Source of the DNA: Hamadaea tsunoensis DSM 44101
Lineage (GTDB): Bacteria > Actinomycetota > Actinomycetes > Mycobacteriales > Micromonosporaceae
Direction of reading: 5' to 3'
NCBI RefSeq assembly: GCF_000428945.1
Contig: NZ_AUAX01000004.1
Coordinates: 124,001-188,000, forward strand
DNA length: 64,000 nucleotides
In this document: positions 1 to 24,418 of the stretch, one piece after another
Numbering within the stretch: position 1 is the first letter of the stretch
Layout: every line of letters begins with the position of its first letter
The notes under the pieces: model-generated
Seen by the model: the letters and a program-made list of their open reading frames with translations, nothing else
What the model was told of the DNA's origin: nothing
Database searches by the model: none
Position numbers and translations under genes: made by a program

Positions 1-314
1 GTGAGGATGTCGGCGACCCGCAGGGGAGTGGCGAGCTGGGTGCCGTAGGTGCCGGTCCACGACAGCTTGGCCAGCACCGGCCAGGTCGAGTTGCCGACGG
101 CGAGGTTCAGCGCGGTCGAGGCGATGAGCCCCGGCACGATCCACCGCAGGTACGGGATGCCGTCGAAGTCGGTCGTCAGGTAGTGGCCGACCCCGAGCCC
201 GATGCCGAGCAGCGTCAGCAGCGGCAGCCCGAACGCTGACAGCAGCGTCGCCGGCCAGGCCCGCCGGAAGCCGACCAGGTAGTACTCGAAGACGGAGAAG
301 ACACCGGTGGACAT
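1..314 (-). CDS. ABC-2 type exporter permease (NodJ/DrrB-like), partial
   Basis: This is the N-terminal part of a membrane permease; the C-terminus lies beyond the left edge. The ATG is the complement of 312-314, and the visible 104 residues begin MSTGVFSVFEYYLVGFRRAWPA, trimmed here to its start MSTGVFSVFEYYL. A short cytosolic segment is followed by a hydrophobic helix (about residues 22-42, LLSAFGLPLLTLLGIG) and a second segment containing YLRWIVPGLIAST. This arrangement is typical of ABC-2 permeases of the NodJ and daunorubicin-exporter families. It starts only 9 nt after the ATPase gene stops and is the last visible gene of the leftward operon. It probably pairs with that ATPase to export the cluster product. 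The family assignment is fairly secure; the substrate is inferred from context. Confidence 0.8.
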   Translation of the reverse strand, partial: MSTGVFSVFEYYLVGFRRAWPATLLSAFGLPLLTLLGIGLGVGHYLTTDFDGIPYLRWIVPGLIASTALNLAVGNSTWPVLAKLSWTGTYGTQLATPLRVADIL

Positions 315-323
315 CGCGCGCCC

Positions 324-1241
324 CTAGTCGATCAGCTGCCGGCCGGTGAGCCGCAGGAAGACGTCCTCCAGCGAACCCCGGCGGATGTAGACGCCGGCCG
401 GGGTGACGCCCCGGTCGTGCAGCGCGCCGACGGCCTTCTCGCCGTCGGCGCAGTAGAGCAGCGTGCGGTCGGGCAGCCGCTCGACCCGGTCGCCGATGCC
501 GTCGAGATCCACTGTGGATCCGGCCGCGAACCGCAGCTCGACGACCTCCTGGCTGGCGTGCCGGCGGATCAGGTCGCCGGGGGCGCCGTCGCCGACGATC
601 TTCCCGCCGTCCATGACGACCAGCCGGTCGCAGAGCTGCTCGGCCTCGTCCATGTAGTGCGTCGTCAGCACCAGCGTCACGCCCTGCTCCTTGAGCCGGA
701 ACAGCCGCTCCCACACCAGGTGCCGGGCCTGCGGGTCCAGGCCGGTCGTCGGCTCGTCCAGCAGGACCACCTCCGGCTGGTTCACCAGCGCCCGCGCGAT
801 GACCAGGCGCCGCTTCATCCCGCCCGAGAGCGTGTTGATGTGGTTGCCCGCCCGGTCGGCCAGCTGCATGAAGTCCAGCAGCTCCAGCGCCCGCTCCCGG
901 GCGGCCCGGCGGGACAGCCGGAAGTAGCGCGCGTACGTGGTGATGTTCTCCAGGACGGTCAGCTCCGCGTCGAGGCTGTCGGCCTGCGGACACACCCCGA
1001 GCCGGGCACGGATGCGGTGGCCGTCGCGTACCGGGTCCATGTCCAGGACGCGCAGCGTTCCCGCGGTGGGCGGCGACACGCAGCCGAGCATCCGCATCGT
1101 CGAGCTCTTCCCGGCGCCGTTCGGGCCGAGGATGCCGAAGAACTCGCCGCGGCGTACCGCCAGGTCGATGCCGTTGACGGCGGTGAACTCGCCGAACCGC
1201 TTGACCAGCGCGGTACCGGCGATGGGGGTGTCGGAGATCAT
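324..1241 (-). CDS. ABC exporter ATP-binding protein (NodI/DrrA-like)
   Basis: A 305-aa ATPase subunit of an ABC-2 exporter. The visible motifs are Walker A (GPNGAGKSS), the signature LSGGMKRR, Walker B (VVLLDEPTTGLDP) and the H-loop (LTTHYMDEAEQ). The C-terminal 70 residues resemble the extension of NodI/DrrA-type ATPases. The ATG at 1239-1241 overlaps the stop of the upstream HAD phosphatase gene by 4 bp, so the exporter is translationally coupled to the biosynthetic genes. This favours export of the cluster product and possibly self-protection, comparable in role to the AcbWXY exporter of acarbose producers. That comparison is by role; sequence kinship was not tested. Confidence 0.9.
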   Translation of the reverse strand: MISDTPIAGTALVKRFGEFTAVNGIDLAVRRGEFFGILGPNGAGKSSTMRMLGCVSPPTAGTLRVLDMDPVRDGHRIRARLGVCPQADSLDAELTVLENITTYARYFRLSRRAARERALELLDFMQLADRAGNHINTLSGGMKRRLVIARALVNQPEVVLLDEPTTGLDPQARHLVWERLFRLKEQGVTLVLTTHYMDEAEQLCDRLVVMDGGKIVGDGAPGDLIRRHASQEVVELRFAAGSTVDLDGIGDRVERLPDRTLLYCADGEKAVGALHDRGVTPAGVYIRRGSLEDVFLRLTGRQLID

Positions 1242-2035
1242 GAGGCGCTCCAGAGGCGTTCGAGGACGGCCGCGACGCCGTCGTCGTCGTTGCCGGGCCC
1301 GACCTCGTCGGCGGCGGCGAGCACGCGCGGGTCGCCGTTGCCCATCGCGACGCCGTAGCCGGACCAGGCGAACATGGGGATGTCGTTGGGCATGTCGCCG
1401 AACGCGATCGTGTCGGCCGCGGCGAACCCGAGCCGGTCCGCCGCGAGGGTCAGGCCGTGCGCCTTGGTCACGCCCGGCGGCAGCAGTTCGACCACCGTCG
1501 GGTGGGCGTGGGTCACCGTGAACGCGTCCCCGCACAGCGCGGCCAGCCCTTCGGCCAGATCGGCCGCCGGGACCGCCCGGCTGCGGACGAACACCTTCTC
1601 GATCGGCCCCGCCCACAGCTCACCCGCCGGGACCGCCACGCAGTCGCCGCTCGCCCGGCTGTAGAAGCCCGGCTCGACCAGGATGTGCCCCGCCGGGCCC
1701 GCGGTGGCCACGCCGATCCACACCGGGGCGTACGCGCGGCGGATGCGGTCGGCCGCCGCACGGGCCGCGGCGATGTCCAATGTGGTCGACCAGACCAACC
1801 GGCCGGTGTCGGCGTCGTAGAGCTGCGTACCCTGGCCGCACACGGCGAGGCCGCGGTAGCCGAGTCCCGCGAGCAGGTCCCGGCAGCCGGCCATCTGCCG
1901 GCCCGTCACCACCAGATGGCGTACGCCGTGGCGGGGCAGTGCGGCCAGCGCGGACCGGGTACGCGCCGACACGGTGAGGTCGGAGCGCAGCAGCGTGCCG
2001 TCGAGGTCGGTGGCGACCACCCGGAATCCGCTCAT
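1238..2035 (-). CDS. Cof-type HAD-superfamily phosphatase
   Basis: A 265-aa HAD hydrolase of the Cof/IIB type. It has motif I near the N-terminus (DLDGTLL, nucleophile Asp), motif II in VVTGR, a conserved Lys (PPGVTKAHG) and motif IV (GDMPNDIPMF). The large cap between motifs I and IV is typical of enzymes that act on sugar phosphates. The gene overlaps both neighbours by 4 bp, lying between a maltokinase-like kinase gene and the exporter ATPase gene. A reasonable role is to remove phosphate from the intermediate or final product just before export. The start (ATG 2033-2035) is the one that gives ATGA coupling and a full motif I. The substrate is not determined. Confidence 0.85.
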   Translation of the reverse strand: MSGFRVVATDLDGTLLRSDLTVSARTRSALAALPRHGVRHLVVTGRQMAGCRDLLAGLGYRGLAVCGQGTQLYDADTGRLVWSTTLDIAAARAAADRIRRAYAPVWIGVATAGPAGHILVEPGFYSRASGDCVAVPAGELWAGPIEKVFVRSRAVPAADLAEGLAALCGDAFTVTHAHPTVVELLPPGVTKAHGLTLAADRLGFAAADTIAFGDMPNDIPMFAWSGYGVAMGNGDPRVLAAADEVGPGNDDDGVAAVLERLWSAS

Positions 2036-3462
2036 CGCAACCCGCCCGCGTGCCGGAGGTCCACATCGACCTGGTAATGGCGGCGGTGGGCGTAGTTGTA
2101 GGCCAGTTCGTGCAGCATCCGCTGGAGGTACAGCGCCCGCCACCAAGCTTCGTTCGGCTCGGCCGCACGCGTGTGCGCCGAACGTGCTTGCGGACGCCCG
2201 CGTTCCGCAAGGGGTTCCGGCGTGCGGTAGCCGGCCAGGATGTGCTCCACGACGATCCGGGTCCACTGGCGGCCGGTGGCGAACACCTGCGCGCGGACCG
2301 GGTCGACGGCCGATCCGGGGAGCAGGTCGCCGACCGCCGCCCGGCACACCTCCCGCCGGTGTACGCCGAGCAGCCGCCCGGTCTCCACCGCCGCCTCGTG
2401 CGCCGCGAATGATTCGAGGCTCCGCTGGACGGCCACGAGATCCTGCCCCGGCGTCTGGTACGCGTACGCCGGGTCGGCCGGGTCCATGGCGGCGGGGGAG
2501 GGGTCGATCGCGCGTACCGTCCAACCGTCCGGTGTGGACCGGTAGAGCAGGTGCGACAGGTGCAGGTCGCCGTGCGCGATCCCTGCGGCGATCGGCGGCC
2601 GGGTCGCGGGGACGGCTGCCGCCAGGCGTCGGGCGAGCTCGGCGCGGACGGCCGCGGGGTGCCGCTCGTCGGCGAGCAGGAGCGCGGTGACGTTCTCCAG
2701 CGGCGTGGTCAGGTCGCCGCGGTAGGCCACCGCCGCGGGGGTCGCCAGCGACCGGTGCAGCCGGCCGACCAGGGCACCCACCTCCGTCAGGACGGGGCCG
2801 ATCCGGTCGACGTGCCGCCGCACGGCCGCCTCGGTGTCCACCTCCGTCCACAGTGTCCGCAGGTTGGTCCGCAGCAGGTCCTCCAGCGGCCGTCCCTCGA
2901 CGAGGCGGTACAGCAGGCCCACCGGGCGCCGCTGCCCGGCCGGGCTCACGTACGCGTAGTGCCCGGCGTACTCGGGCAGGCAGTCGCCACCCCGCGACCG
3001 GCGCAGCGCCGCCGGCTCGTGGCCGTCCGGCGGCAGCACCCGGTAGCGCTTGTGCACGTGCGGGTGGCCGCCGAGGCGTACCAGGGACAGGGCGTTGGTC
3101 GAATAGCCGCCGTCGAACGGGAGCGGTCCCTCGAAGGCGGGCGGGTCGCCGTGGAACTCCAGCACACCGCCCCGGGCCGTCGTGATGCGACGGTTCTCGC
3201 GCAGGACGGCGACGACGAGCGCGTCGAACGCGGGTCCGCCCTCGCGCGGTCCGCCGGAGCCGTCGAGGGGTACGGCGTACCAGCGGTCGGGGTCGGTGTC
3301 CGGCGCGACGAGGGCGATCGCGGTGCCGGTGCCGGGCTCCAGCTCGATGTGGTCGACGAGGTCGAAGCGGTGGGCCGCCCGGCCGGTCTCGTCCAGCCAG
3401 GGGGCACCGCGCAGGTGGCCGCTGATCGCCGCCGCCGTACGCGTGGCGCTGGGCAACGCCAT
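2032..3462 (-). CDS. Maltokinase-like / aminoglycoside-phosphotransferase-fold sugar kinase, paralogue 1
   Basis: A 476-aa protein of the maltokinase-like branch of the APH superfamily. It has an ATP-lobe Lys in HVHKRYRVLPP, the catalytic loop AHGDLHLSHLLY and a metal-binding Asp in VRAIDPSP. The N-terminal cap carries FHGDPPAF and GGYSTNALSL. The same arrangement, including the C-terminal HELAY and LRHA motifs, occurs in the protein at 15988-17373, so the two are paralogues. Related actinobacterial kinases phosphorylate maltose (Mak, feeding GlgE) or glucosamine. The final His of HGDLHLSH replaces the Gln/Asn usual in this family. A GlgE-like gene lies in the same operon, which makes maltose or a malto-pseudo-oligosaccharide attractive as substrate, but this is inference. 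Confidence 0.75.
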   Translation of the reverse strand: MALPSATRTAAAISGHLRGAPWLDETGRAAHRFDLVDHIELEPGTGTAIALVAPDTDPDRWYAVPLDGSGGPREGGPAFDALVVAVLRENRRITTARGGVLEFHGDPPAFEGPLPFDGGYSTNALSLVRLGGHPHVHKRYRVLPPDGHEPAALRRSRGGDCLPEYAGHYAYVSPAGQRRPVGLLYRLVEGRPLEDLLRTNLRTLWTEVDTEAAVRRHVDRIGPVLTEVGALVGRLHRSLATPAAVAYRGDLTTPLENVTALLLADERHPAAVRAELARRLAAAVPATRPPIAAGIAHGDLHLSHLLYRSTPDGWTVRAIDPSPAAMDPADPAYAYQTPGQDLVAVQRSLESFAAHEAAVETGRLLGVHRREVCRAAVGDLLPGSAVDPVRAQVFATGRQWTRIVVEHILAGYRTPEPLAERGRPQARSAHTRAAEPNEAWWRALYLQRMLHELAYNYAHRRHYQVDVDLRHAGGLR

Positions 3463-3475: not shown

Positions 3476-4390
3476 CTACGGCAGGGCCGCGCCGCGCGCG
3501 GAGATCCAGAGCTGGTACCACTCGTCGTGGCTGAGGTCGGGTTCGGCGTTCGCAGCGTCGCGGCAGGCGCGGATCCGCTCGGGCCGGGCGGTGCCGATGA
3601 CCGGGGCGATCCGGGCCGGATGGCGGCGCAGCCACCACAGCACGATCGTCTCCGGGGTGGTGCCCTTGCGCTCGGCGAGTTCGGCCACCAGTCGGGTGGT
3701 CTCGTCGTCGGGTCCGGCGCCGGTGTAGCGGCCGCGGGCGAGCGGCCCCCACGCCTGTACGCCGATCCCGTGCGCCCGGCAGTGCTCCAGGGTGCCCGGC
3801 GACTCGACGAGCTCCCGGCGGGCCAGGCTCAGCTCGACCTGGTTCACGACGAGCGGCACGCTCACCTGCGCCCGGAGGAAGCCGATCGTGGATGCGTCCA
3901 TGTTGGACACGCCGAACTGGCGCACGAGGCCCTGCCGGTGCAGGTCGGCGAAGGCCGCGGCGATCTGCGCGGGCTCCATGAGCGGATCCGGCCGGTGCAG
4001 CAGGAGCACGTCGACATGGTCGGTACGCAGCCGCTCCAGGCTCTCGGCCACCCGCTGCCGGATGGTGTCGGCCCGCAGGTCGTACAGCCCCACCCGGCCG
4101 CGCGCGGGTACCCGGATGCCGCACTTGGTCTGCAGCGTGATCCGGCCGCGCAGCTGCGGGTCGCGGGCGAGCAGTTCGCCGAAGACCGCCTCGGCCTTGC
4201 CGTGCTTGTAGATGTCGGCGTGGTCGAAGGCGGTGATGCCCGCGTCGAGCGCGGCCCGGACGGCGGCCTCCGCGGTGTCGACGTCGGCCGCCGTGTACGG
4301 CTCGGTGTCCCAGCCGCCGCCCAGACCCATGCAGCCGTAGAGAATCCGGTGCTCCCGGACGTCCGTGCCCGCGGCGATCTCCGTGCTCAC
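3476..4390 (-). CDS. Aldo/keto reductase
   Basis: A 304-aa NAD(P)H-dependent aldo/keto reductase with a TIM barrel. The catalytic tetrad is visible: Asp and Tyr in FDHADIY, Lys in LQTKCGI and His in LLHRPDP. The C-terminal cofactor-binding stretch PVIGTARPERI is also present. It resembles YdhF-type oxidoreductases. The GTG start (4388-4390) overlaps the GMC oxidoreductase stop by 4 bp; a longer reading frame exists upstream but runs through that gene. In this operon it probably reduces a keto-cyclitol or sugar intermediate. In acarbose assembly the equivalent redox steps use other reductase families, so this would be a cluster-specific solution. Confidence 0.88.
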   Translation of the reverse strand: MSTEIAAGTDVREHRILYGCMGLGGGWDTEPYTAADVDTAEAAVRAALDAGITAFDHADIYKHGKAEAVFGELLARDPQLRGRITLQTKCGIRVPARGRVGLYDLRADTIRQRVAESLERLRTDHVDVLLLHRPDPLMEPAQIAAAFADLHRQGLVRQFGVSNMDASTIGFLRAQVSVPLVVNQVELSLARRELVESPGTLEHCRAHGIGVQAWGPLARGRYTGAGPDDETTRLVAELAERKGTTPETIVLWWLRRHPARIAPVIGTARPERIRACRDAANAEPDLSHDEWYQLWISARGAALP

Positions 4391-5862
4391 AGCGTCCGCC
4401 GGAGCGTGTCGGCCAGCTGCTCGGCGATGGCCAGGACGGGAAGCTGGGTGTTGGCGGCCGGCGCCGTCGGCAGGATCGACGCGTCGGCCACCCGCAGGTT
4501 CGCGATGCCGCGTACGCGGCCCTCGCCGTCGACCACCGCGTCGGGATCGGCGTCGGGACCGGCCGCGCACGTGCCGACGGGATGCCAGTAGACGCTCGCG
4601 CGCCGCCGCAGCTCCTCGTCGGTCAGCTCCGCCGGGGAGGGGCCGGTCCGGCGGGTCCAGCGGGCGACCGCGGGCTGGTCGGCGAACCGCTCCACCAGGC
4701 GCAGCCCCGCCCGCATCGTCGCCAGGTCGAGACCGTCCGGGTCGGACAGCACCGCCGGGTCGATGTCGAGCGGGTCGGCCGGGTCGGCGGAGTGCAGGCG
4801 TACGTGGCCGCGGGACGCGGGTTTCATCAGGTACGCCGAGATCCCCGCCTCGTACTGGCCAGGTGGCAGCTTGCCGAACAGGGGCGGCCCGGCGACCGGC
4901 AGGATGTGCAGGTCCCAGCCGCCCGCGGGGGCACCGGCGGTCGCGGCCCGGGCGAGGACGCGGCTGACGTAGAGGTCACCGGCGGCCTGCTGGGCGGCGA
5001 GGGTCGCGTTCAGTTCCGGGGTCGGCGCGAGCGGCATGAACACCCCGGGCTGGTCGCTGAGGTTCGCGCCGACGCCGGGCAGGTCGACCTCGGTCTCGAC
5101 GCCGACCTCCTTGAGATGCCGGGCCGGCCCGACGCCGCTGCGCAGCAGGATCGCGGGGGAGCCGAGCGCGCCGGCCGCCAGCACGTAGGCGCCGCCGGTG
5201 ACCGGCTCGGCCCGGCCGTCCACGACGACGCCGCGGACGCGCCCGTCGCGGACGATCAGCCGCCGGACCGGGGAGTCGCCGAGAACGGTCAGGTTGGGCC
5301 GCGTACGCGCAGCCGACAGGTAGGCGAACGCGGCGTTCCACCGCACCCCGTCGATCGCGTTCAGCAGCGGTACGCCGTACCCGGGCGTGCTGCCGGTCGC
5401 GGCCATGTCGACCTCGGCGAATCCCAGGGCCCGGGCGGCGTCGACGGCCGCCGTGGCGAACGCCGACAGCTCGGTGGCGGGCGGCGGGATCAGCTCCATC
5501 TGGGCGATCGCCCGCTGCCGGAACGGTTCCAGGGCGGCGGCCGACCACTGCGGCCCGACGAGGTCCGTCCACTCGCGATGGTCGGCCGCCGACGGCCAGG
5601 TGTGCCAGCAGCCGTTGACGCAGGACGAGCCGCCCAGCACCTTCGCGCGTACGCGGTGCATGGGCACGTGCCGCTCCCACACGTCGTCGCGGGGCAGGGC
5701 GCGGGCATCCCGCAGCGCGTCGGGCCAGGCGCGCACGTCGGGGCCGTAGTCGGGGCCGGCCTCGACGAGGCAGACGGTGCGGCCGGGGTCCTCACTGAGC
5801 CGGGCGGCCAGCACGCAACCCGCGACCCCGCCGCCCAGAATGACGACATCGTAGACGCTCAT
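4387..5862 (-). CDS. GMC-family FAD-dependent oxidoreductase
   Basis: A 491-aa flavoprotein of the glucose-methanol-choline family. The N-terminus holds the FAD dinucleotide-binding motif (VVILGGGVAGCVLAARL) with the Glu of VEAG. The GMC signature region is VLGGSSCVNG. The C-terminus contains the catalytic His (YWHPVGTC) and the Asn of AANTQLP. GMC enzymes oxidise primary or secondary alcohols with oxygen or another acceptor. The gene is coupled by 4-bp overlaps to the PfkB kinase and aldo/keto reductase genes. Oxidation of a cyclitol hydroxyl to a ketone, ready for amination by the aminotransferase of the right arm, is a natural but untested role. Confidence 0.9.
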   Translation of the reverse strand: MSVYDVVILGGGVAGCVLAARLSEDPGRTVCLVEAGPDYGPDVRAWPDALRDARALPRDDVWERHVPMHRVRAKVLGGSSCVNGCWHTWPSAADHREWTDLVGPQWSAAALEPFRQRAIAQMELIPPPATELSAFATAAVDAARALGFAEVDMAATGSTPGYGVPLLNAIDGVRWNAAFAYLSAARTRPNLTVLGDSPVRRLIVRDGRVRGVVVDGRAEPVTGGAYVLAAGALGSPAILLRSGVGPARHLKEVGVETEVDLPGVGANLSDQPGVFMPLAPTPELNATLAAQQAAGDLYVSRVLARAATAGAPAGGWDLHILPVAGPPLFGKLPPGQYEAGISAYLMKPASRGHVRLHSADPADPLDIDPAVLSDPDGLDLATMRAGLRLVERFADQPAVARWTRRTGPSPAELTDEELRRRASVYWHPVGTCAAGPDADPDAVVDGEGRVRGIANLRVADASILPTAPAANTQLPVLAIAEQLADTLRRTL

Positions 5863-6770
5863 TCGGTCTGCTCCAGCCGGGCGACCCAGTCCAGCAGCTC
5901 CGCCCGGCCGATCGAGGCCGTCCGGGTCGCCGGGATCGTGCACGCGTACGCGCCCGCGAGCGCGCCGTAGAACGCGCTGCGCAGCGGCTTCTGCCCGTCG
6001 AGCCAGCCGAACAGGAACCCGGACACGAACGCGTCGCCCGCGCCGTTGGAGTCGACGACCGGGTCCGCCGGAGCGACCGCCGGCACGTGGGTGATCTCGC
6101 CGTCGGCCCAGACGTGGGAACCGCGCGCGCCGTCGGTGGCCACGACCACCTGCGCCCGGCCCCGGTCGGCGATCTTGCGGATGACGGCGTGCGGGTCGGC
6201 CAGCGCGGTCGCCGACAGGATCACGATGTCGGCCGCGTACGCGAACGTCTCGTGGTAGCTCTCCACGCCGTCCCAGTTGTGCAGGTCGGTCGAGATCGTG
6301 ACGCCGGCCTCGCGCAGGATCGGCAGGGCGTGCCCGCACGGGTAGGTGATCGACACGTGCGCGTGCCGGCTGCGCCGGGCGAGATCGCGGACGGTGCCGG
6401 GCGGCAGCCGGTCGTCGCCCTCGCCCCGGGTCGCGTCGTACAGCGACAGCCGTCGGCCGTCGGGGCCGACGAGGTTGACGGCCCGCTTGGTACCCGAGGC
6501 GACGGGGACGTCGGTGAACGGGATCCCGTTGTCCCGGTGCAGCGCCCGCAGCAGGTCGCCCTCGTGGTCGGCGCCCAGCAGGTCGATGTGGTGCGTCGCG
6601 AGCCCCAGCGCGTGCACGCCGAGCGCCACGTTGTCCCCGGTCTGCCCGGCCTTCTGCTCGATCGGCGGCACCATGTAGCTGTCGGCGTACGCCAGCGGGA
6701 GCTCGGGGACGTAGACGATGGTGTCCACTCCGGACCCGCCGAGAACGAGGACGTCGATGTCGGTGCTCAT
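5859..6770 (-). CDS. PfkB/ribokinase-family carbohydrate kinase
   Basis: A 303-aa kinase of the PfkB family. It shows the N-terminal glycine-rich start (LVLGGSGVDTIV), the second conserved block QKAGQTGDNVAL, and the anion-hole/catalytic motif DSNGAGDAFVSGF with its base Asp. Ribokinase-family enzymes phosphorylate primary alcohols of sugars. In acarbose producers the family supplies kinases acting on the cyclitol or on finished acarbose (AcbK), so a cyclitol or pseudo-oligosaccharide substrate is plausible. The ATG overlaps the stop of the GlgE-like gene. It is one of four small-molecule kinases of three different folds in this locus. Confidence 0.9.
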   Translation of the reverse strand: MSTDIDVLVLGGSGVDTIVYVPELPLAYADSYMVPPIEQKAGQTGDNVALGVHALGLATHHIDLLGADHEGDLLRALHRDNGIPFTDVPVASGTKRAVNLVGPDGRRLSLYDATRGEGDDRLPPGTVRDLARRSRHAHVSITYPCGHALPILREAGVTISTDLHNWDGVESYHETFAYAADIVILSATALADPHAVIRKIADRGRAQVVVATDGARGSHVWADGEITHVPAVAPADPVVDSNGAGDAFVSGFLFGWLDGQKPLRSAFYGALAGAYACTIPATRTASIGRAELLDWVARLEQTE

Positions 6771-8506
6771 GCCTGCTCCTGAACTTCGGTGATCATTTCC
6801 ATGCGGTACAACGCGGCAACGGATTGCCGCGGGTCGAGGGTGACGGCCAACGGACCGTCCCAGGTCAGCGTCTGGCCGGAGATCTCGTCGGTGAGGCGGC
6901 CCGCGCCCAGGCCGAGGTCGCCGGGCGTCACCGCCACGGTTCCCGTCCGAGGCCCGTCGGGGTCGAGGTTCACCACGCACAGCACCGCGCCGCCGGTCTC
7001 CGGGTCCCTTTTCGAGTACGCGATCAGCGCGTCGTCGTCGACCGGGTGGAACCGGAGCGTGCGCAGCGACCGCCAGGCGGGGTGCGCCCGGCGTACGCGG
7101 TTGAGGGTGGTGATCCAGTCCTCGGCCGAGCGGCCGGCGGCCCGGGCGGCTTCGAAGTCGCGGGGACGCAGCTCGTACTTCTCGGCGTCCGCCGGGACCG
7201 GGCGGCCCGGCGCGGCCGGTTCGCTCTCGCAGATCTCGTAGCCGCTGTAGATCCCCCAGCTCGGGCCGAGCGTGGCCGCGAGGGTCGCGCGGATCGCGTA
7301 CATGGCCGGGCCCTGGTGGTGCAGGTGCACGGGGAGCACGTCGTGGTTGCTCGGGAACAGGTTCGGCCGCAGGAAGTCCGCCCCGGCGACGAGGTCAGCC
7401 CCGAACGCGGTCAGCTCAGCCTTCGTCTCGCGCCACATGAAGTAGGTGAGCGTCTGGTCGAAGCCGAGCCGCGACAGTCCCTGCTGGACGGCCGGCCGGG
7501 TGAACGCCTCGGCGAGGAAGACCACGCCCGGGTACGCCTGCTTCACGTCGGCGATCAGCCGTTGCCAGAACCCGGCCGGTTTCGTGTGCGGGTTGTCCAC
7601 CCGGAACGCCGTCACCCCCAGCCCGGCCCAGTACGCGACGATCCGGCGCAGTTCGGCGTACAGGCCCTCGGGGTCGTTGTCGAAGTTCAGCGGGTGGATG
7701 TCGGTCCACACCCGCGGCGGGTTCTCGGCGCAGGCGATCGTGCCGTCGGGGCGTACGGTGAACCACTCCGGATGTTCGGTGAGCCAGGGATGGTCGGGCG
7801 CGCACTGCCAGGCGAGTTCCAGCGCCACTTCGAGCCCCAGTTCCCGGGCCCGGTCCGCGTACGCGACGAAGTCGGCCTCGTCGCCGAGGTCGGGATGGAT
7901 CGCGTCGTGACCGCCCTCGGCCGCGCCGATCGCCCACGGGCAACCGGGATCGCCGGGTCCGGCGACCGGGCTGTTGCCCCGGCCCTTGCGTTCCCGGCGG
8001 CCGATCGGGTGGATGGGGGTGAGGTGGACGACGTCGAACCCGAGCGCGGCGATGCGGGGCAGATCCTCGGCCGCCGTACGCAACGTCCCGTGCACCGGGC
8101 GTCCCTCGGCGTCCCGGCCGCCCGTCGAGCGGGGGAACACCTCGTACCAGGCTCCGAAGGCGGCCCGTTCCCGCTCGGCGAACACCGGGTACGCCGTACC
8201 GGCCGTCTCGTACTGCCGCACCTCGCCGTCCGTCCACGCGGTGACCTGGAAAGTCCAGTCGCCGGGAGCGGTCGCGACCACGTCGGCGCGCCAGACGTCG
8301 GGCTCGCCCGGGTCCTCGGTCATCGGGATCAGCGTGTGCTTGCCGTCGGGCGCGGTCCAGCGGACGGCCACGGTCACCGGCGGGTAGCCGTCCCGCCAGA
8401 CGACCGCGCGGACCGGCAGGTGCTCGCCGACGACGGTCTTGGCCGGATACCGCCCGGCCTCCGCGACGGGCGCGACCTGTTCGATGACGATCCGCTCGAA
8501 ACTCAT
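6767..8506 (-). CDS. GlgE-like alpha-1,4-glucan:maltose-1-phosphate maltosyltransferase (GH13_3-type), variant
   Basis: A 579-aa GH13 protein whose N-terminal sandwich (RIVIEQVAPV) and barrel blocks (AWYEVFPRS, TPIHPIGR, RKGRGN, GGHDAIHPDLG, FRVDNPHTKP, FLAEAFTRPA) match GlgE. The predicted nucleophile is D304, the acid/base E333 and the third carboxylate D389. GlgE extends glucan with maltosyl units from maltose-1-phosphate. Two points are unusual. The protein is shorter than the roughly 660-700 aa usual for GlgE, and the stretch around the third carboxylate reads PSNHDVLP where GlgE normally has a VNTPDI-like sequence. No TreS or GlgB is nearby. It may use a maltosyl phosphate in pseudo-oligosaccharide assembly or be a cluster-dedicated, inhibitor-tolerant copy; both are inference. 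Confidence 0.85.
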   Translation of the reverse strand: MSFERIVIEQVAPVAEAGRYPAKTVVGEHLPVRAVVWRDGYPPVTVAVRWTAPDGKHTLIPMTEDPGEPDVWRADVVATAPGDWTFQVTAWTDGEVRQYETAGTAYPVFAERERAAFGAWYEVFPRSTGGRDAEGRPVHGTLRTAAEDLPRIAALGFDVVHLTPIHPIGRRERKGRGNSPVAGPGDPGCPWAIGAAEGGHDAIHPDLGDEADFVAYADRARELGLEVALELAWQCAPDHPWLTEHPEWFTVRPDGTIACAENPPRVWTDIHPLNFDNDPEGLYAELRRIVAYWAGLGVTAFRVDNPHTKPAGFWQRLIADVKQAYPGVVFLAEAFTRPAVQQGLSRLGFDQTLTYFMWRETKAELTAFGADLVAGADFLRPNLFPSNHDVLPVHLHHQGPAMYAIRATLAATLGPSWGIYSGYEICESEPAAPGRPVPADAEKYELRPRDFEAARAAGRSAEDWITTLNRVRRAHPAWRSLRTLRFHPVDDDALIAYSKRDPETGGAVLCVVNLDPDGPRTGTVAVTPGDLGLGAGRLTDEISGQTLTWDGPLAVTLDPRQSVAALYRMEMITEVQEQA

Positions 8507-10071: not shown

Positions 10072-10156
10072 GGCGATCCTTTCGCGTCCCGACGAATGCG
10101 CTAATACATTGGCAACAGACGATTTATTTACCAATCACCAAACTCCGAGTGGGCCG

Positions 10157-10186
10157 AATCTACGACGGGCCGGGAACCTAGTCAAC
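10157..10186 (-). promoter_or_regulatory. Predicted leftward sigma70-type promoter overlapping a CTAGTCAAC motif
   Basis: On the minus strand TTGACT (10180-10185) is followed after exactly 17 nt by TAGATT (10157-10162), a good match to housekeeping -35 and -10 boxes. Transcription would start near 10150, leaving about an 80-nt leader before the GH13 gene. The -35 box lies inside the motif CTAGTCAAC (10178-10186), so a protein bound there would block the promoter. Confidence 0.6.
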
Positions 10187-17375: not shown

Positions 17376-19520
17376 ATGCACATCATCGAGACGTACTTCG
17401 AGTGCGGCGGCTTCGACCACCGGCTCATCCAGGGCGGCACGTCCGTCTACCTGTGGAACCTGGCCCGCTCGCTGGCCCGCCAGGACCACCGGGTCTCGAT
17501 CGTCGCCCCGGCCCACGGTCGCCTCGACGACCTGCGCCGCCTGCACGACGTCGAGGACCTCGACTACTCCGACCGCTACCGGCTGCCGCTCGTGCTCGAT
17601 CGGCGTACCTGGCGGGAGGGGTTCGCCGACGAGATCGACATGAACCTCACCACGACCGCGCACCGGCTCCGGCTCGACGGCGTCGACCTGTACTTCCTGT
17701 CCAACGAGATGCTCGACCGGCTGCCCGACCGGATGTACCCGCCCTACGAGTCCAAGGGCAACGACCTGGTCTTCTTCAAGCCGCTCGTCTATCAGGTGGA
17801 CAGCATCCGGTTCATCCGCCACCGGTTCGCCGACGAGCGGGCGATCGTGCACGCGCACGAACCGTTCTACCACTACCTGATGCCGGCGGCGTTCCGCGAC
17901 GACCCGACGAAGCTGATGGTCAGCACGGTGCAGAGCAACATGCCGATCACCAAGAGCGTCTACCGGCCCGAGGTCGAGACGCTGCTGGCCTTCCTCGGTA
18001 CGCCGGTCGAGCTGCCGCCGGTGGACCCGCCGCCGCCCGCCGACCTGGCCGTGCCGGGCGCGTACCAGCAGCTGACGCATCTGCACTACGAATACCCGCC
18101 CGACCACGTACGCATCCACGACCTCGTCGCCGAGCATGCGGACCTGGTGGGCTTCCTGTCCGCCGGGCAGCAGCGGTTCCAGTCCGACCTCGCGGACACG
18201 CCGTTCGAGCAGGTGTTCCGGCGGCTGCCGGTGGCGGACGTGGTGCGGCGCAACGCGTACAAGCACTTCGAGGCGGGCTGCGCGGTCGGCGATGCGTGGA
18301 CTGCCAGCCGGGGAGCGCTTGCGCGAGCCGCCAGAAGTTCGGTCAGCGACTTCGGTACCGTCGACCGGGCGGCCGTCCTGACCGGGCTCGGCCTCGATCC
18401 GGCGCTGCCGACGTTCTTCCACAACGCCCGGTTCGCCGTCCACCACAAAGGACAGATCGAGCTGATCCGCGCGGTCGGCCGGGTCCTCGACGAAGGGGCC
18501 GAGGCCAACTTCATCCTGCGCTGCCTGTCCGACTTCGGCCTGCACCCGCTGTTCGACGAGGTCGCCGCCCGGCACCCGGGCCGCCTCTACGTCGAGACCG
18601 CCCGCATCGACGACAAGCAGCTCATGCAGTACGCCGCGGCCGCCGACTTCTGCGTCTTCCCCTCGAAGTTCGAGATGGACACGTTCCTCATCGCGCAGGG
18701 CGAGGCGATGGCGGCCGGGGCGGTGCCGATCGCGACCGCCCAGCTCGGCATGGCCCACTACGGCCACGTGGCCGACCCGCTGACCGGGCCGCATGCGGCC
18801 ACCGCGACCGGCTGGGCCGTCGGCCGGTCGTTCGCCGAGGACGATCCGCTCCTCGTTGCCGCGCTCGTCGACCGGATCCACGGCGCGATCCGGCTGTGGC
18901 ACGACGACCCGGCCGCGTACGCGCGCCTCTCGGTGAACGCCGTCGCCAACGCGCGCCAGTTCACCTGGGAACGGTGTGCCCGCCGGCATCTCGCCGCCTT
19001 CGAACCGCTCTGGAACGGTGTCACGCCGGAGCTGCCCGTCGAACGCGCGCTGGAGCACGGCTGGTTCGACCTGCTCGACACTCCCGTGTGGACGGCACGG
19101 CCCGACGAGATCGCCGAGGCCGCGCTGCGCTGGGGCGACCTCGACGCGTACCGGCGGGTGCGGGAGCTGAACCCGGCCGCGGCGGAGCGGTTCTACGACG
19201 CCGCCTGGGCCCGGGCCGACCTTCCGGCCTGCCGGGCGATCGCGGCGGAGTTCCCCGACCTCGCCACCCGCCTGCGGGAGCGGTACGCCCTCCACCCCGA
19301 CGGCCTGCGCTACCGGCTGCCGCACGCGGCCCGGGTCGACCTCGTCCTGCCCGGCGCGGCGACCGGCGGCCGGGCGCTGCCGACCGTGCGGCCCATGGTC
19401 CGGCAGGGCGACTGGTTCCGGGTGGCGGTCACCGAGCCCGGCCCCTGGCACCTGCTGATCACGCTGCCGGACGGCCGCTGCGCCTGGGATCTGCTGTCCC
19501 CGGAGCCCGGCGATGACTGA
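17376..19520 (+). CDS. GT5-like glycosyltransferase (glycogen/starch-synthase fold), candidate pseudoglycosyltransferase
   Basis: A 714-aa GT-B glycosyltransferase. The N-terminal domain starts [12 protein letters not shown] and has [17 protein letters not shown] in place of the K-x-G-G-L loop of starch synthases. The C-terminal Rossmann half holds the nucleotide-binding pattern [21 protein letters not shown]. About 200 extra residues follow (from about 510) with a beta-rich end. It begins 2 nt after the kinase gene, and its stop overlaps the nucleotidyltransferase gene by 8 bp. In acarbose assembly the GT5-like AcbS joins the activated cyclitol to the amino-sugar chain without a classical glycosidic bond. 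The same job is the best hypothesis here; a normal glucosyltransferase is the alternative. Confidence 0.8.
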
Positions 19521-20601
19521 CGACGTCCGGGCGGTCCTGCTCGCCGGGGGAGAGGGCCGCCGGATGGGCCCGCTCGGCACCGGCCGGTCCAAGCCGCTCA
19601 TCCCGTTCGGCGGATCCTGCCGGCTCGTCGACTTCAGCCTCGCCAACGCTCGCGACTCCGGCCTCGGCGACGTCCTGCTGCTGTCCCAGTTCGCCGAGAA
19701 GCAGCTCATGGACGACCTGCGCCGGACCTGGTGGCGGCCGGACTTCCGGGTCCACTTCGGACCTTTCGACACGGCGTACTGGGCCGGGGTGCCCGAGCAC
19801 CTCGATCCGCCCGAGGGGCCGCCCGAGCGGGGGACCGCCGACGCGTTGCTGCGCAAGGCCGAGTTCATCTTCACCCCCGGCGTACGCGACGTCCTCGTGC
19901 TGCACGCCGACCACGTCTACCGGTTCGACTACCGGCCGCTGTTCGCCCGGCACCGCGCGACGGGGGCCGCGCTGACGCTCGCGTACCAGCGGATCGAGCG
20001 GGAGTACGTGCGGCTGTTCGGGATGGTCGAGTTCGACGGGCAGGGACGGCTGACGAAGTTCGTCGAGAAGCCGGAGAATCCCACGAGCGACCTCGTGTTC
20101 GCCGCGTTCTGCGTGTTCGACGCGGCGAAGCTGGAGAAGTACCTGGGCATCCTCGACGGCCGCACCGGGTGGCAGCACGACATCAGCCGGGACGTGATCC
20201 CGGCGATGCTCGCGGCGGGCGAGCACATCGAGGGCTACCCGGTCGACGGGCCGTGGGCCGACATCGGCACGGTCGAGCGCTACCACCGCGCCCATCTCCA
20301 GTCCGTACGCCAGGACCCGGCGGCCGTACCCGTCGCGGCGATGCCCCGGACGATCCGGCCGGGCGTCGACCGCCGTCTCGTCCAGGACGCCCCCGGGATC
20401 CGGCACAGCGTCGTCCCGGCCGACGCGGCCGTACGCGGCGACGTCGCGTACTCGGTGCTGTTTCCCGGAGCGGTGGTGCACGCGGGCGCGGTGGTGACCG
20501 ACAGCGTGGTCCTGCCCGGCGCGATCGTGCCGCCCGGGGCGCACGTCGACGGCGCGATCGTGCTGGAGAGCGGCGAGGTGCAGGCGGTGGTTCATGGGTG
20601 A
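19513..20601 (+). CDS. GlgC-like nucleotidyltransferase
   Basis: A 362-aa protein of the glucose-1-phosphate adenylyltransferase family. The N-terminal nucleotide-binding motif is [13 protein letters not shown], followed by SKPLIPFGG. The metal-binding Asp is in [11 protein letters not shown], and the product-binding motif is KFVEKP. A C-terminal left-handed beta-helix ([19 protein letters not shown]) completes the GlgC layout. It is shorter than bacterial GlgC (usually 400-430 aa). Homologues in cyclitol clusters (ValB, AcbR) activate a cyclitol phosphate as an NDP derivative. Position directly after the GT5-like gene supports an activation-then-coupling pair. Confidence 0.87.
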
Positions 20602-21571
20602 CACGGGGTTCGTCGTCATGGACGTCGGCGGGACGACCACCCGGACCGGCCACTACCTGCCCGACGGGCGGGTGACCGGCGTGCGGCGGGTGCCCACGGC
20701 CGGCATCGGCCTCGACCCCGGTACGCCGGTCGCGGACCTCCAGCGCCGTGTCGTCGAGCAGATCGCGGCGGAGGCGGAGACCACGCTGATCGCGTCGGGC
20801 GCGTCCGCCGTCGGCATCGCGTTCGCCGGACCGGTGACCACGGCCGGGCGGGTGCTCGCCGGGCCGACGGTCTGGGGCGGCGGCGGCGTCCCGATCGACC
20901 TCGCCGACCTGCTCCGCGACCGGCTGGGCGTGCCGGTGACGGTGGTCAACGACCTCACCGCGGCCGTCTGGCGGTACGTGTCCGGCCCCGGCGAGCCGCC
21001 GTTCTGCCTGGTCACGGTCAGCTCCGGGATCGGGAACAAGGTCTACTGGGACGGCCGGGTCCTGCTCGACGAGGGGCACGGCGGGGAACTCGGCCACTGG
21101 ACGTGGCGTACCGACGCGGACGCGCCACCATGCGACTGCGGGGGCCGCGGGCACCTCGGCGGCATCGCCTCCGGTCGCGGGGTGCTCGCCGCCGCCCGGT
21201 CCGACGCCCGCTACGACCACGTCTCCTACGGGCCGCGGGACCGGCTCACCAACGAGATCCTCGTGGCCGCCGTCCGTGCCGGCGATCCGCTGGCCACCGA
21301 GACGCTGCGTACCGCCCTGCGCCCGCTCGCGGCCGCGTTGACGTCGGTTTTCTGTGCCATCGGCGTACGCCGGTTCCGCGTCATCGGCGGTTTCGCGACC
21401 GCGATCGGCGCCCGGTACGCCGAACTGCTCACCGAGGCGCTGCACGAGGCCGGCTGCTTCGGCCTGAGCCCGGCCGAGATCGACGGCCTCGTGACGATGG
21501 GGGAGCCGGACGACGACCACAGCCTGCTCGGCGCCGGACGCCTCCTGACCCTGGACGGGGTCGCGGGATGA
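20594..21571 (+). CDS. ROK-family sugar/cyclitol kinase
   Basis: A 325-aa ROK-family kinase. The N-terminal phosphate loop is [13 protein letters not shown], the catalytic Asp is in [10 protein letters not shown], and the metal-binding region is GGELGHW followed by [11 protein letters not shown]. In the last motif the third Cys of the usual CxCGxxGC zinc site is His. AcbM, the 2-epi-5-epi-valiolone 7-kinase of acarbose biosynthesis, is a glucokinase-like kinase of this broad type. Phosphorylation of the cyclitol ahead of the GlgC-like enzyme is therefore a consistent role. The gene overlaps both neighbours (8 bp and 4 bp). Glucokinase activity cannot be excluded. Confidence 0.87.
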
Positions 21572-22449
21572 GGGTCTTGATCGTCGGGTCGGGGTTCGTG
21601 GGGCAGGCCGTGGCGGCGGCGGTCGAACGGGACGGCGGGCATGCCGTGCTGGCGTCCCGCCGTCCGGTTCCCGGCACCGCCCGCTGGGTACGCCTCGACG
21701 CCACGGATCCCGCCGGGTGTGCCCAGGCCGTCCAGCGCGTACGCCCGGACGCGGTCGTCGCCGTCCACGGCCCGTCCGACGTGACCTGGTGCGAGCAGCA
21801 GCCCGCGGCCGCCCTGGCCGCGCACCGCGACGCGACCCGCAACCTCGTACGCGCGCTCGGCCGCACCCGGCTCGTGCTCATCTCGACCGACAACGTCTTC
21901 GACGGCCGGAGCCCGGACAACGACGAGGAGACCGCGACGGCGCCGGCGAACGCGTACGGGGCGGCGAAACTGGCGGCCGAGGCGGAACTGGCCGGGCACC
22001 CGGACGCGACCGTGCTGCGGGTCAGCCTCGTCTACGGGCCCGAGACGGCGCGGCCGGGCAAGCGGACGAACTTCGCGGCGGCCTGCGTACGCGGCTGGCA
22101 GGCGGACGAGGTCGTGCCCGCCCCGGTCGACCAGTGGACGACCCCGGTCCACGTGGCCGACGTCGCCGCCGTGACGCTGGCGGCCGTCCGCGGCGCCCCG
22201 CCGCTGCTGCATCTCGGCGGCCCCGAACGGATCAGCCGGTTCGACTGGGCACACCGGCTCGCCGCGCGGCTGGGCTACCCGGCGGCCCTGATCGGTCCCG
22301 TGACCCGCGACTCAGGCCCGTACGCCTGCCGCCCCGCCAACTCCTGCCTCACCAGCCGCCTGCTGCCGGCGTCGCTGGACGCGTGGCGGCTGCGCGTACG
22401 CGGGGTCGACGAGGGAGCGGACGGCCTTGTCGCGGCCGTCGCCGGTTGA
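21568..22449 (+). CDS. RmlD-like NAD(P)-dependent reductase (extended SDR)
   Basis: A 293-aa extended short-chain dehydrogenase/reductase. It has the N-terminal dinucleotide motif GSGFVGQAV, the catalytic Ser/Thr region ISTDNVFDG and the Y-x-x-x-K pair in AYGAAKLAAE. QWTTPVHVADVA is the substrate-domain motif shared with dTDP-4-dehydrorhamnose reductase. The ATG at 21568 gives a 4-bp overlap with the ROK kinase gene and is the last start of this translationally coupled run. As no dTDP-sugar genes are present, a keto-cyclitol or a keto-sugar bound to another nucleotide is the likelier substrate. Confidence 0.85.
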   Translation: MRVLIVGSGFVGQAVAAAVERDGGHAVLASRRPVPGTARWVRLDATDPAGCAQAVQRVRPDAVVAVHGPSDVTWCEQQPAAALAAHRDATRNLVRALGRTRLVLISTDNVFDGRSPDNDEETATAPANAYGAAKLAAEAELAGHPDATVLRVSLVYGPETARPGKRTNFAAACVRGWQADEVVPAPVDQWTTPVHVADVAAVTLAAVRGAPPLLHLGGPERISRFDWAHRLAARLGYPAALIGPVTRDSGPYACRPANSCLTSRLLPASLDAWRLRVRGVDEGADGLVAAVAG

Positions 22450-22472: not shown

Positions 22473-22499
22473 GTTCGCACCGAACATAATGTTGACTAG
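22473..22499. promoter_or_regulatory. Candidate operator region upstream of the last GH13 gene
   Basis: Three signals are packed into 27 bp of AT-rich spacer: the inverted repeat GTTCG-CAC-CGAAC (22473-22485), the palindrome AACATAATGTT (22483-22493) and the nonamer GTTGACTAG (22491-22499). The nonamer is the reverse complement of the one found twice in the main control region. This points to control of the GH13 gene by the same regulator. I could not place a confident -35/-10 pair. Confidence 0.4.
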
Positions 22500-22579
22500 T
22501 AAGCAAACTGATAACAGTCTATGAACTCGGGCGACGAGGCCTGCGGCTCAACGACTTCGGACACAATGGAGGTGGCGCG

Positions 22580-24418
22580 GTGTTCGACTCCGACGCCCTC
22601 GGCGAGCATCCGCACCATGACGGGTCTCCGCTGTACACCGATCCGGCCCGGCCCGTCCTCGGCGGCACCGTCCGCGTCTGGGTACGCGTACCCGCCACCG
22701 CGGGGGTCACGGACGTCCGCGTCCGGACGACTCCCGACGGGGACGTCCGCTACACGCCGGCGGCGATCGACCACGACCGGTCCGGCCGGGTCTTCGGCGG
22801 CTACGGCGCCAAGGACGTCTGGTGGTACGCCGACGTGCCCGTGCGCAACCCCGTCACCAACTACCGGTTCCTGCTCCTCGGCGGGCCCGGCGAGTCCGGC
22901 TGGCTGACCGCGGCCGGTGCCGTCGGCCACGAGGTCCGCGACACCACCGACTTCCGCCTCGTCACCCACGACCCTGGCCCCGACTGGGCCGCCGAAGCGG
23001 TCGTCTACGAGATCTTCCCGGACCGGTACGCCCGCTCGGCCGACGCGCCGGACCCGGCGGACCTGCCGGACTGGGCCGTCCCCGCCGAGTGGGACCGCGA
23101 CGAGGTCGTCTACGAGGGCCCGGACACCCCGCTGCAGTTCTTCGGCGGCACCCTCGACGGCATCGCGGAGCACCTCGACCACCTGCAGTCGCTCAACGTC
23201 ACCGCGATCTACCTGCGCCCGGTCTTCCCGGCCGCGTCCAACCACCGCTACAACGCGACGACCTTCGACAGCGTCGACCCGCTGCTCGGCGGCGACGCGG
23301 CGCTGACCCGCCTGGCGGATGCCGTCCACGCCCGCGGCCTGCGGCTCATCGGCGACATCACTACCAACCACTGTGGAGACACCCACGAGTGGTTCCGCGC
23401 CGCCCAGGCCGACCCGGCCGCCCCCGAGCGCGAGATGTTCTACTTCGACGCCGACGGCGGCTACGAGGCCTGGTACGGCATCCCGTCGCTGCCCAAGTTC
23501 AACTGGGGCAGCGACCTCGTCCGCGAGCGCATGACCGCCGTCGTGCGCCGCTGGCTGGACGTCTACGACGGCTGGCGCGTCGACTGCGCCAACATGACCG
23601 GCCGCAACCGCGACGAGGACCGCGCCCACGAGATCGCCGCCGGCCTGCGCGCCGAGATCGACGCCGTCCGCCCCGACGCCCTCGTCGTCGCCGAGCACAA
23701 CTACGACGCCGCGAACGATCTCGACCGCGGCGGCTGGCAGGGCACGATGAACTACGCCGGCTTCACCCGGCCGCTGTGGGGCTGGCTGCGCGGCGACGGC
23801 ACCACCATCCGCTACTTCATCGACGCCCCGGGCGGCGTACCCCGGCGCGACGGCCGCGGCGCGCTGGCCAGCATCCGCCAGGTCGCCGCGGGCGTCTCCT
23901 GGTCCACCTACAACCGCTCCTGGCAGCTCCTCGACTCCTACGACGTCGGCCGCTTCCGCTCCGTCACCATGTCCCGGGAGAACCACCTCGTCGGTGCCGG
24001 TCTTCAAGCCACCCTCCCGGGTACGCCGATGATCTGCGGCGGCGACGAGTTCGGCCTCACCGGACAGAACGGCGAACACGCGCGTACGCCGATGCCGTGG
24101 AACCGTCCCGGCGACGTCGACGAGCCGACGCTCGCCGCGTACCGGGAGCTGTTCGGGCTGCGGGCGGCGGAGCCGGCGCTGCGCCGCGGCGGCCTGCGGT
24201 GGCTGCACGCCGACGCGGACGTGCTCGTCTTCCTCCGCGAGACGCCGACGGAGTCGTTGCTCGTCCTCGCGGCGCGGGCCGGCCACGCCCCCGTACGCCT
24301 TCCCCTCGACGCCGACCTCACCGGGGTCTACCAGGCCGCGGACGAGACGGCGCGCAACGGGGCGGTGACCCTGCCCGCCGGCCCCACCGGCGTACGCGTC
24401 TGGCGCATCACCGGCTGA
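22580..24418 (+). CDS. GH13 neopullulanase/alpha-glucosidase-type enzyme with N-terminal beta domain
   Basis: A 612-aa GH13 protein with an N-terminal beta-sandwich (about 25-130, CBM34-like) and then the barrel (YEIFPDRY from about 143). Region I is GDITTNHCGD, the predicted nucleophile D335 (GWRVDCANM), the acid/base E372 (VVAEHNYD) and the third carboxylate D455. The residue before D455 is Tyr (LLDSYDVGRF), whereas most GH13 enzymes have His there (NHD/SHD). That His contacts subsite -1. No signal peptide is visible, so it should act inside the cell. GGAGG precedes the GTG start. It sits 130 bp after the biosynthetic run with its own operator-like sequences. It probably degrades or recycles the malto- or pseudo-oligosaccharide. 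Confidence 0.87.
   Translation: MFDSDALGEHPHHDGSPLYTDPARPVLGGTVRVWVRVPATAGVTDVRVRTTPDGDVRYTPAAIDHDRSGRVFGGYGAKDVWWYADVPVRNPVTNYRFLLLGGPGESGWLTAAGAVGHEVRDTTDFRLVTHDPGPDWAAEAVVYEIFPDRYARSADAPDPADLPDWAVPAEWDRDEVVYEGPDTPLQFFGGTLDGIAEHLDHLQSLNVTAIYLRPVFPAASNHRYNATTFDSVDPLLGGDAALTRLADAVHARGLRLIGDITTNHCGDTHEWFRAAQADPAAPEREMFYFDADGGYEAWYGIPSLPKFNWGSDLVRERMTAVVRRWLDVYDGWRVDCANMTGRNRDEDRAHEIAAGLRAEIDAVRPDALVVAEHNYDAANDLDRGGWQGTMNYAGFTRPLWGWLRGDGTTIRYFIDAPGGVPRRDGRGALASIRQVAAGVSWSTYNRSWQLLDSYDVGRFRSVTMSRENHLVGAGLQATLPGTPMICGGDEFGLTGQNGEHARTPMPWNRPGDVDEPTLAAYRELFGLRAAEPALRRGGLRWLHADADVLVFLRETPTESLLVLAARAGHAPVRLPLDADLTGVYQAADETARNGAVTLPAGPTGVRVWRITG

Follow-up and report, generated by a model that had tools for sequence, protein, structure and literature searches.

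The 64,000-nt stretch of DNA analyzed here (the window; positions 124001–188000 of contig NZ_AUAX01000004.1, or C4, of Hamadaea tsunoensis DSM 44101, whose genome of 9.48 Mb lies in 68 contigs) harbors at its left end a gene cluster that, judged by homology, very probably belongs to the acarbose (acarviosyl pseudo-oligosaccharide) family and joins a cyclitol route of the gac/sct type to an assembly and alpha-glucan module of the acb type. The cluster is real and probably functional, and its most likely product would be an acarviosyl-type alpha-glucosidase inhibitor that is made and exported. A first-pass annotation based on the DNA letters had proposed a C7-cyclitol pseudo-oligosaccharide cluster following acarbose logic, which is borne out by homologs of acb proteins at 46–72% identity and by the placement of AcbS- and AcbI-type transferases in a tree. 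Its terms “undescribed” and “divergent” were too strong: an alternative cyclitol route has been published for the sct cluster (PMC8234114), and the cluster is less divergent than the annotation held. Its core is of a known kind, and what makes the variant unusual is an altered copy of GlgE together with an optional redox pair.

Gene calls and Pfam and NCBIfam profile scans of the predicted proteins revealed two divergent gene runs that meet near the gene of a MarR regulator. On the minus strand lie genes for a GH13 enzyme (GH13a), a GlgE-like protein, a PfkB kinase, a GMC oxidoreductase, an aldo-keto reductase (AKR), a kinase, a HAD phosphatase, the ATPase and two permeases of an ATP-binding cassette (ABC) system, and a glycosyltransferase. 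The plus-strand run encodes the MarR protein, an amylase with a CBM20 domain, a cyclase, a cupin, an aminotransferase, a kinase, a glycosyltransferase, a nucleotidyltransferase, a ROK kinase, an RmlD-like enzyme, and a second GH13 enzyme (GH13b). All enzyme classes listed by the first-pass annotation were confirmed in this way, two of the kinases through homology to AcbU. The enzymes it placed between positions 1 and 24418 are indeed there, but the cluster extends to the left of position 1: the minus-strand run reaches 3.5 kb past the left window edge (into stretch L004), where it encodes the second permease and a 740-amino acid (aa) AcbI-like glycosyltransferase. As calculated from the coordinates, six of the seven junctions from the cyclase to the RmlD-like gene overlap by 4–8 nt and one is a 2-nt gap, while from GH13a to the first permease five of eight overlap by 4 nt and three are gaps of 9–13 nt, in agreement with the proposed translational coupling of both runs.

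The sedoheptulose-7-phosphate cyclase (13201–14358, plus strand) is assigned by family scan, comparison with PDB entries, motif, and tree to the 2-epi-5-epi-valiolone synthase (EEVS) type. Its closest solved relative is ValA (244.4 bits); entries named 3-dehydroquinate synthase score at most 180 bits, and 2-deoxy-scyllo-inosose synthase (DOIS), the other grouping named as a refutation by the first-pass annotation, gives a weak PDB match (93.8 bits). With a score of 229, the protein stays below the cut-off of the AroB profile TIGR01357 (305), and it carries the motif VDFGHTFGP instead of the AroB motif LNLGHTFGH, the EEVS criterion being this motif as seen in the present alignment; an eLife paper mentions 14 active-site residues as an EEVS fingerprint. 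A tree of 45 cyclases, with DOIS and type-1 cyclases left out, united the window protein in a 13-row clade (100/100) with those of two further genomes of the window's family, G286 and G338, and of ten Streptomyces/Kitasatospora clusters. This clade neighbors the AcbC/ValA clade with a support of 93/83, which is under the program's mark for strong support, and is separate from AroB (100/100), with a program warning of long branches meeting. The grouping with AroB that had been set beforehand as a refutation was thus not seen.

The rest of the cyclitol branch resembles the alternative route of sct/gac. Together with the cyclase (39% identity to AcbC), the 115-aa cupin (14355–14702), the ROK kinase (20594–21571; 30% to AcbM), and the RmlD-like short-chain dehydrogenase/reductase (21568–22449), all on the plus strand, match SctC, SctJ, SctM, and SctO in size and similarity, so that the last three are likely counterparts of SctJ (a proposed 2-epimerase), SctM, and SctO. 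The published sct table gives SctC 39% identity to AcbC and SctM 31% to AcbM, and lists SctJ (138 aa, 2-epimerase) and SctO without acb homologs (PMC8234114). Since this table names no folds, we infer a cupin fold for SctJ from position and length; gac/sct proteins were compared by way of the table, and type-1 Streptomyces clusters of like gene order (see below) stood in for the sequences. In the cupin, the probable metal-binding residues (HxH, E, and H) are invariant in 24 of 24 aligned rows. The sct cluster itself lacks AcbL, AcbN, and AcbO, and an alternative route to valienol 7-phosphate, in which their place is taken by an AcbM-like kinase together with an additional small epimerase and an additional oxidoreductase-like protein, was proposed without biochemistry and with no sct enzyme tested (PMC8234114). 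In G338 (L040, 14831–16870), ROK kinase and RmlD-like enzyme are fused into one 679-aa protein, which suggests consecutive steps.

The window cluster thus contains the gac/sct-type set of cyclase, J (small epimerase), M (kinase), and O, and shares with the acarbose/acarviostatin clusters gac (Streptomyces glaucescens) and sct (S. coelicoflavus) the V, U, S, R, I, and K homologs as well. In contrast to gac/sct, it lacks A/B, Q, and the WXY exporter, and holds an AcbD-like enzyme, an AcbJ-like phosphatase, the GlgE copy, and a second AcbU-like kinase.

The assembly module was compared with the acb cluster of G067, a genome of the window's family that we take to be Actinoplanes sp. SE50/110, with its name and acb gene letters deduced from gene order; identities are best pairwise matches of window-locus proteins to the cluster proteins of G067. 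The highest were obtained for the class III aminotransferase (14699–15994, plus strand; 72% to AcbV), the GlgC-like cyclitol nucleotidyltransferase (19513–20601, plus; 69% to AcbR), the GT5-like pseudoglycosyltransferase (17376–19520, plus; 62% to AcbS), the PfkB kinase (5859–6770, minus; 61% to AcbK), the GH13-CBM20 protein resembling the acarviosyl transferase AcbD (10913–13084, plus; 56%), and the HAD-IIB (Cof-type) phosphatase (1238–2020, minus; 52% to AcbJ). Lower values were found for the transferase left of the window (−3516 to −1294, minus; 48% to AcbI) and the AcbU-like kinase (15988–17373, plus; 46%), besides those for AcbC and AcbM. A second AcbU-like kinase (2032–3462, minus) is 36% identical to AcbU and retains the kinase motif HGDLHLSH; both kinases are AcbU homologs though they have no Pfam match at E ≤ 0.001. 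The counterparts of AcbR, AcbU, AcbJ, and AcbV that an acarbose-family cluster requires are therefore all present, and so is the AcbI partner transferase. In a tree of 21 large transferases, the protein at 17376 falls within a 14-row AcbS clade (100/100) and the one left of the window within a 6-row AcbI group (100/99). AcbI moves the amino sugar onto maltose and AcbS forms the C–N bond, both activities having been assayed (PMC9200736); a 2022 report also mentions AcbS homologs that lack a partner AcbI gene (PMC9200736). A third large AcbS/AcbI-like transferase of G286 (L038, 15424–17589) forms a long branch, toward AcbI in the split but outside the AcbI group.

Several observations weigh against this assignment. 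Among the window-locus proteins there is no match to AcbL, AcbN, AcbO, AcbP, or AcbQ (E ≤ 1e-5), to AcbX or AcbY, or to AcbB, and AcbA matches weakly the AcbR-like protein alone (30% over 103 residues). The acb-type combination of an AcbM/L/N/O cyclitol route with AcbA/AcbB in the cluster is accordingly absent. The known route to valienol 7-phosphate uses five enzymes, three of which (AcbO, AcbL, and AcbN) are without a homolog here; the cupin and the RmlD-like enzyme could replace two of these at most, which leaves the branch formally incomplete, as in sct. The AcbI-like protein is just 48% identical to AcbI, and the gene set is not constant, G286 being without U, K, Q, D, and AKR in 80 kb. 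Nor is the exporter AcbWXY, a candidate that was rejected with the ABC ATPase (324–1241, minus strand) just 33% identical to AcbW. The first-pass annotation had called the exporter NodIJ-type; an ATPase of the NodI/DrrA type is indeed present, but its profile matches stay below curated cut-offs, and family scans gave no match for the permeases (1–314, extending to −447, and −1297 to −458, left of the window; both minus strand).

The following pathway is drawn from homology only; all its substrates and its product, the supply by rml genes, and the parts played by GMC/AKR, the second kinase, and the GlgE copy are inferred. The cyclase (13201) would convert sedoheptulose 7-phosphate to 2-epi-5-epi-valiolone, which the cupin (14355) would epimerize and the ROK kinase (20594) phosphorylate; dehydration and reduction, with participation of the RmlD-like enzyme (21568), would then give valienol 7-phosphate. 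The AcbU/AcbJ pair (15988 and 1238) may convert this to the 1-phosphate for activation by the AcbR-like enzyme (19513). In the second branch, RmlA and RmlB encoded elsewhere in the genome would supply deoxythymidine diphosphate (dTDP)-4-keto-6-deoxyglucose, the AcbV-like enzyme (14699) would aminate it, and the AcbI-like transferase left of the window would place the amino sugar on maltose, before the AcbS-like enzyme (17376) forms the C–N bond. The product would be exported by the ABC system and extended or shuffled outside by the AcbD-like enzyme, while AcbK, the GH13 enzymes, and the GlgE copy may handle it or its glucan tails inside, and GMC and AKR could form an optional redox pair that acts on either the product or one of its precursors.

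Conservation analysis of 354 genomes of the window's family found the cyclase at 67–68% identity in G286 and G338, the other matches listed being at most 45%. Nine named Streptomyces/Kitasatospora loci with a cyclase at 63–67% came from a genome collection (of 11 returned), and one further named locus from plasmids (one of 17 records matched). The core gene order is kept in these ten named records, one of which is incomplete and one of which has a split aminotransferase gene, and is rearranged in G286 and G338; because of this recurrence the cluster is not a chance assembly. In G338, and partly in G286, the two arms are encoded in close proximity; their separation in related genomes, which the first-pass annotation had named as a refutation, was not seen there.

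An AcbS-type transferase was detected in 17 of 392 genomes of one Streptomyces-side genus (E ≤ 1e-180), and two cluster types can be distinguished. Type 1 (12 of the 17) has the order B-A-V-W-X-Y-U-S-R-(K)-I-Q-C-J-M-O, as given for sct in the review (PMC8234114); AcbA/B are found in ten of the twelve, including G697, whose stretch ends after I, and the other two lie on short contigs. Type 2, to which the remaining five and most named loci belong, runs C-J-V-W-X-Y-U-S-R-M-O-P-(I)-J-(Q)-K-GMC-AKR, with no A/B inside the run. Like these clusters (e.g., S. griseofuscus, L042, and the NBC_00467 plasmid, L057), the window cluster has no AcbA/B in its run, places cyclase and cupin ahead of V, U, S, R, M, and O, and contains a K-GMC-AKR run. 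In contrast to the window, the 11 type-2 clusters covered to their end carry their own WXY and a NUDIX protein (11/11) and mostly a radical SAM protein (10/11); AcbI was not found in the stretch covered of nine, and neither GlgE nor AcbD was seen in the fetched stretches of any. These patterns suggest that the cyclitol route of the gac/sct type extends beyond Streptomyces and that clusters of the acarbose family are put together from interchangeable modules.

The radical SAM protein, which ends ten of the 11 type-2 clusters (L057, 32488–34569, and elsewhere), is 670–700 aa long, with a MoaA-like start and a long unassigned C-terminal half. A close relative was not found in the window's genome, which shows a weak match to the core domain (37% over 21–189). 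In Streptomyces cupreus (L050 and L065, ~12.4–22.2 kb when joined), the AcbV-type aminotransferase gene is split by ~9.8 kb of DNA with hardly any convincing reading frames; this cluster copy therefore looks inactivated, whereas the gene is intact in G519, which has the same cluster type.

The first-pass annotation regarded the GMC flavo-oxidoreductase (4387–5862, minus strand; 66% to the NBC_00467 cluster ortholog) and the AKR (3476–4390, minus; 68% to the ortholog of Streptomyces type-2 clusters) as distinctive, but both recur in Streptomyces clusters of the acarbose family. Of the 17 Streptomyces genomes that carry an AcbS-type gene, 13 have a GMC ortholog (5/5 type-2 and 8/12 type-1), counted from gene tables or, for G730, by genome search, and for G647 on an edge fragment (64%); genome searches (E ≤ 1e-90) did not find it in G692, G697, G441, and G462. 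With the same query and limit, it was detected in five of 11 genomes (the window's own, G067, and nine others with an AcbS-type cluster) and in none of 37 controls, of which 20 were without an AcbS match and 17 belonged to the window's family. Five of these 11 genomes have both GMC and AKR, two AKR alone, four neither, and none GMC alone. The AKR ortholog, found in seven of the 11, is in four of them encoded at a distance from the cluster or on a different contig and also occurs in two of the 37 controls, and is thus less specific than GMC. Among solved structures, GMC comes closest to choline oxidase and other alcohol oxidases, which does not fix its substrate. In G338 and G692 the C-J-M-O genes are present while neither GMC nor AKR was found, so that the pair is not needed for the cyclitol branch and is probably an optional redox step; a role as missing steps of that branch, considered as a candidate, was weakened by the same two genomes. 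GMC-AKR-radical SAM genes also occur a few kb upstream of the type-1 cluster in G651 (L093, 102–5230) and G647 (L085, 87–3714), as if parts of both cluster types stood side by side.

These data bear on the strongest competing explanation, that plain acarbose or an acarviostatin is made and that the GlgE copy, GMC, and AKR serve glucan metabolism only and leave the product unchanged. We consider this a real possibility, if not the favored one: the assembly enzymes have acb counterparts, and known clusters also adjoin one to four amylase genes (PMC13240717), but GMC was detected at E ≤ 1e-90 solely in genomes with such clusters (the 5/11 versus 0/37 above) and is encoded within the same overlapping gene run. 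GMC thus follows the acarbose-type cluster family closely, and no role is assigned to it in the literature excerpts covered. Among the open-access papers listed by the literature searches, neither titles nor abstract openings refer to GMC, radical SAM, or an additional GlgE in clusters of the acarbose type.

Among the clusters compared, a second GlgE within the cluster (6767–8506, minus strand; assigned by family scan and alignment of active-site residues) is common only to the window, G286, and G338; neither the acb cluster nor the retrieved stretches of 23 Streptomyces/Kitasatospora clusters showed a GlgE homolog. A more ordinary GlgE is encoded on contig C20 of the window genome and likewise elsewhere in G286, while in G338 none was found besides the cluster copy (E ≤ 1e-30). 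The window copy is 49–51% identical to three ordinary copies of this GH13_3 maltosyltransferase and shares their catalytic residues: Asp394, Glu423, and the third catalytic Asp are kept in all three cluster copies (numbering counted from the nucleophile and off by one residue at the third Asp). In contrast, Lys355 and Tyr357, reported to touch the phosphate mimic in a solved complex, are not retained. Tyr357 is replaced by Trp in all three cluster copies, and Lys355 by Arg in the window and G338 and by Ala in G286. The residue before the third Asp is an amylase-like His in 3/3 cluster copies versus Pro in 3/3 ordinary copies. The other phosphate-site and sugar-site positions checked are unchanged in the window copy, G286 differs at 264, 268, and 395, and the solved Mycobacterium and S. 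coelicolor enzymes carry the ordinary residues. Moreover, the window copy alone is without 73–84 N/S-domain residues found in the other five copies, and the Pfam N/S profile matches it to position 89 of 179 only.

By alignment, these changes support an altered reaction more than a resistant spare. The cluster GlgE has seemingly departed from the maltose 1-phosphate reaction, and the literature excerpts covered assign it no role. If such a duplicate, recruited to an acarbose-type cluster and re-tooled within the window's family of actinobacteria, performed maltosyl or acarviosyl transfer on or off the pseudo-oligosaccharide instead of acting on maltose 1-phosphate, or were an inhibitor-insensitive copy, then it could, together with GMC/AKR, lead to a product outside acarbose, acarviostatin, and trestatin, possibly a GlgE-pathway inhibitor; we regard this as unlikely. 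The GlgE-pathway inhibitor suggested by the first-pass annotation found no direct support, and the cluster GlgE copy keeps it possible. The narrower idea of a product that inhibits GlgE, with the cluster GlgE as a self-resistant version of the target, appears improbable. In its favor, a further GlgE of more ordinary kind is present in the window genome and G286, residues near the phosphate and −1 sites are changed in the cluster copies, and inhibition of a GlgE variant by a valienamine glucoside has been reported (65% at 1 mM; PMC8238978). However, the cluster copy is no spare in G338, where it was the only GlgE found, the window copy has lost part of its N/S domain, GlgE was not seen in the acb and Streptomyces/Kitasatospora stretches named above, and the phosphate-site change fits an altered reaction better than resistance.

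The first-pass annotation saw no dTDP-glucose synthase or dehydratase, which holds locally, there being no dTDP-sugar genes in the cluster, but not for the genome: one RmlA and one RmlB gene, both above curated cut-offs, are adjacent on contig C29, with rmlC- and rmlD-like genes, judged by eye, nearby. Supply from the C29 locus would be the simplest reading; rmlA/rmlB also lie 3–8 kb upstream on the NBC_00467 plasmid and ~16–18 kb upstream in NRRL S-118. Alternatively, GMC could oxidize the 4-OH of glucose for amination by the AcbV-like enzyme, which would explain the missing dTDP-sugar genes and yield 4-amino-4-deoxyglucose, as in adiposin or amylostatin. AcbA/AcbB are missing here and from the fetched stretch of ten of the 11 type-2 clusters, GMC was found only in genomes with AcbS-type clusters, and adiposin-2 differs from acarbose in this sugar alone (PMC8234114). 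Against this stand the rmlA/rmlB pair, the 72% identity of the aminotransferase to AcbV, and G338, which has neither AcbA/B nor GMC. Of ten type-1 clusters with AcbA/AcbB, moreover, seven hold GMC and an eighth has it ~3 kb outside. This finding weakened the adiposin-type product as deduced from missing AcbA/B, and we give the idea little credence.

A validamycin-like system, with the cyclitol as substrate of the aminotransferase and a coupling of two C7 units, would accommodate the two AcbU-like kinases and the missing dTDP-sugar genes but is very improbable, since the validamycin transferase is trehalose-phosphate-synthase-like (PMC9200736) while both window-locus transferases are GlgA-like in profile scans and tree, of the AcbS/AcbI type and with no GT20-like pseudoglycosyltransferase, and since the aminotransferase resembles AcbV and an AcbI partner and AcbD homolog are present.

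The remaining GH13 enzymes differ at one motif. GH13a (8503–10071, minus strand) retains NHD, whereas GH13b (22580–24418, plus strand) has SYD in its place, as does one G338 copy; another G338 copy and a G286 copy have SHD. In pullulanase-domain amylases of acarbose-type clusters, exchange of His for Ala or Asn is reported to confer acarbose resistance (PMC13240717). The start of the CBM20 amylase near 10913 was set by eye and is upstream of the initial call; a probable signal peptide was likewise recognized by eye. The MarR-type regulator (10362–10814, plus strand; family scan) has a relative at 50% identity that adjoins an AcbD-like gene in G338. The divergent intergenic region (10072–10361) contains two opposed promoter-like sites; between 9900 and 13300, two such sites, which are consensus matches only, compare with 0.2 expected.

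Outside the cluster, a 948-aa caspase-domain (Peptidase_C14) protein is encoded upstream (L004, 11968–14814). Two very large divergent genes within the window (27400–32832 and 33292–39615) correspond to an 1810-aa protein that combines DUF4082, laminin-G, and Ig-like domains and to an RHS-repeat protein of 2107 aa, and an alpha-L-arabinofuranosidase B with a ricin-type lectin domain is found at 51050–52636.

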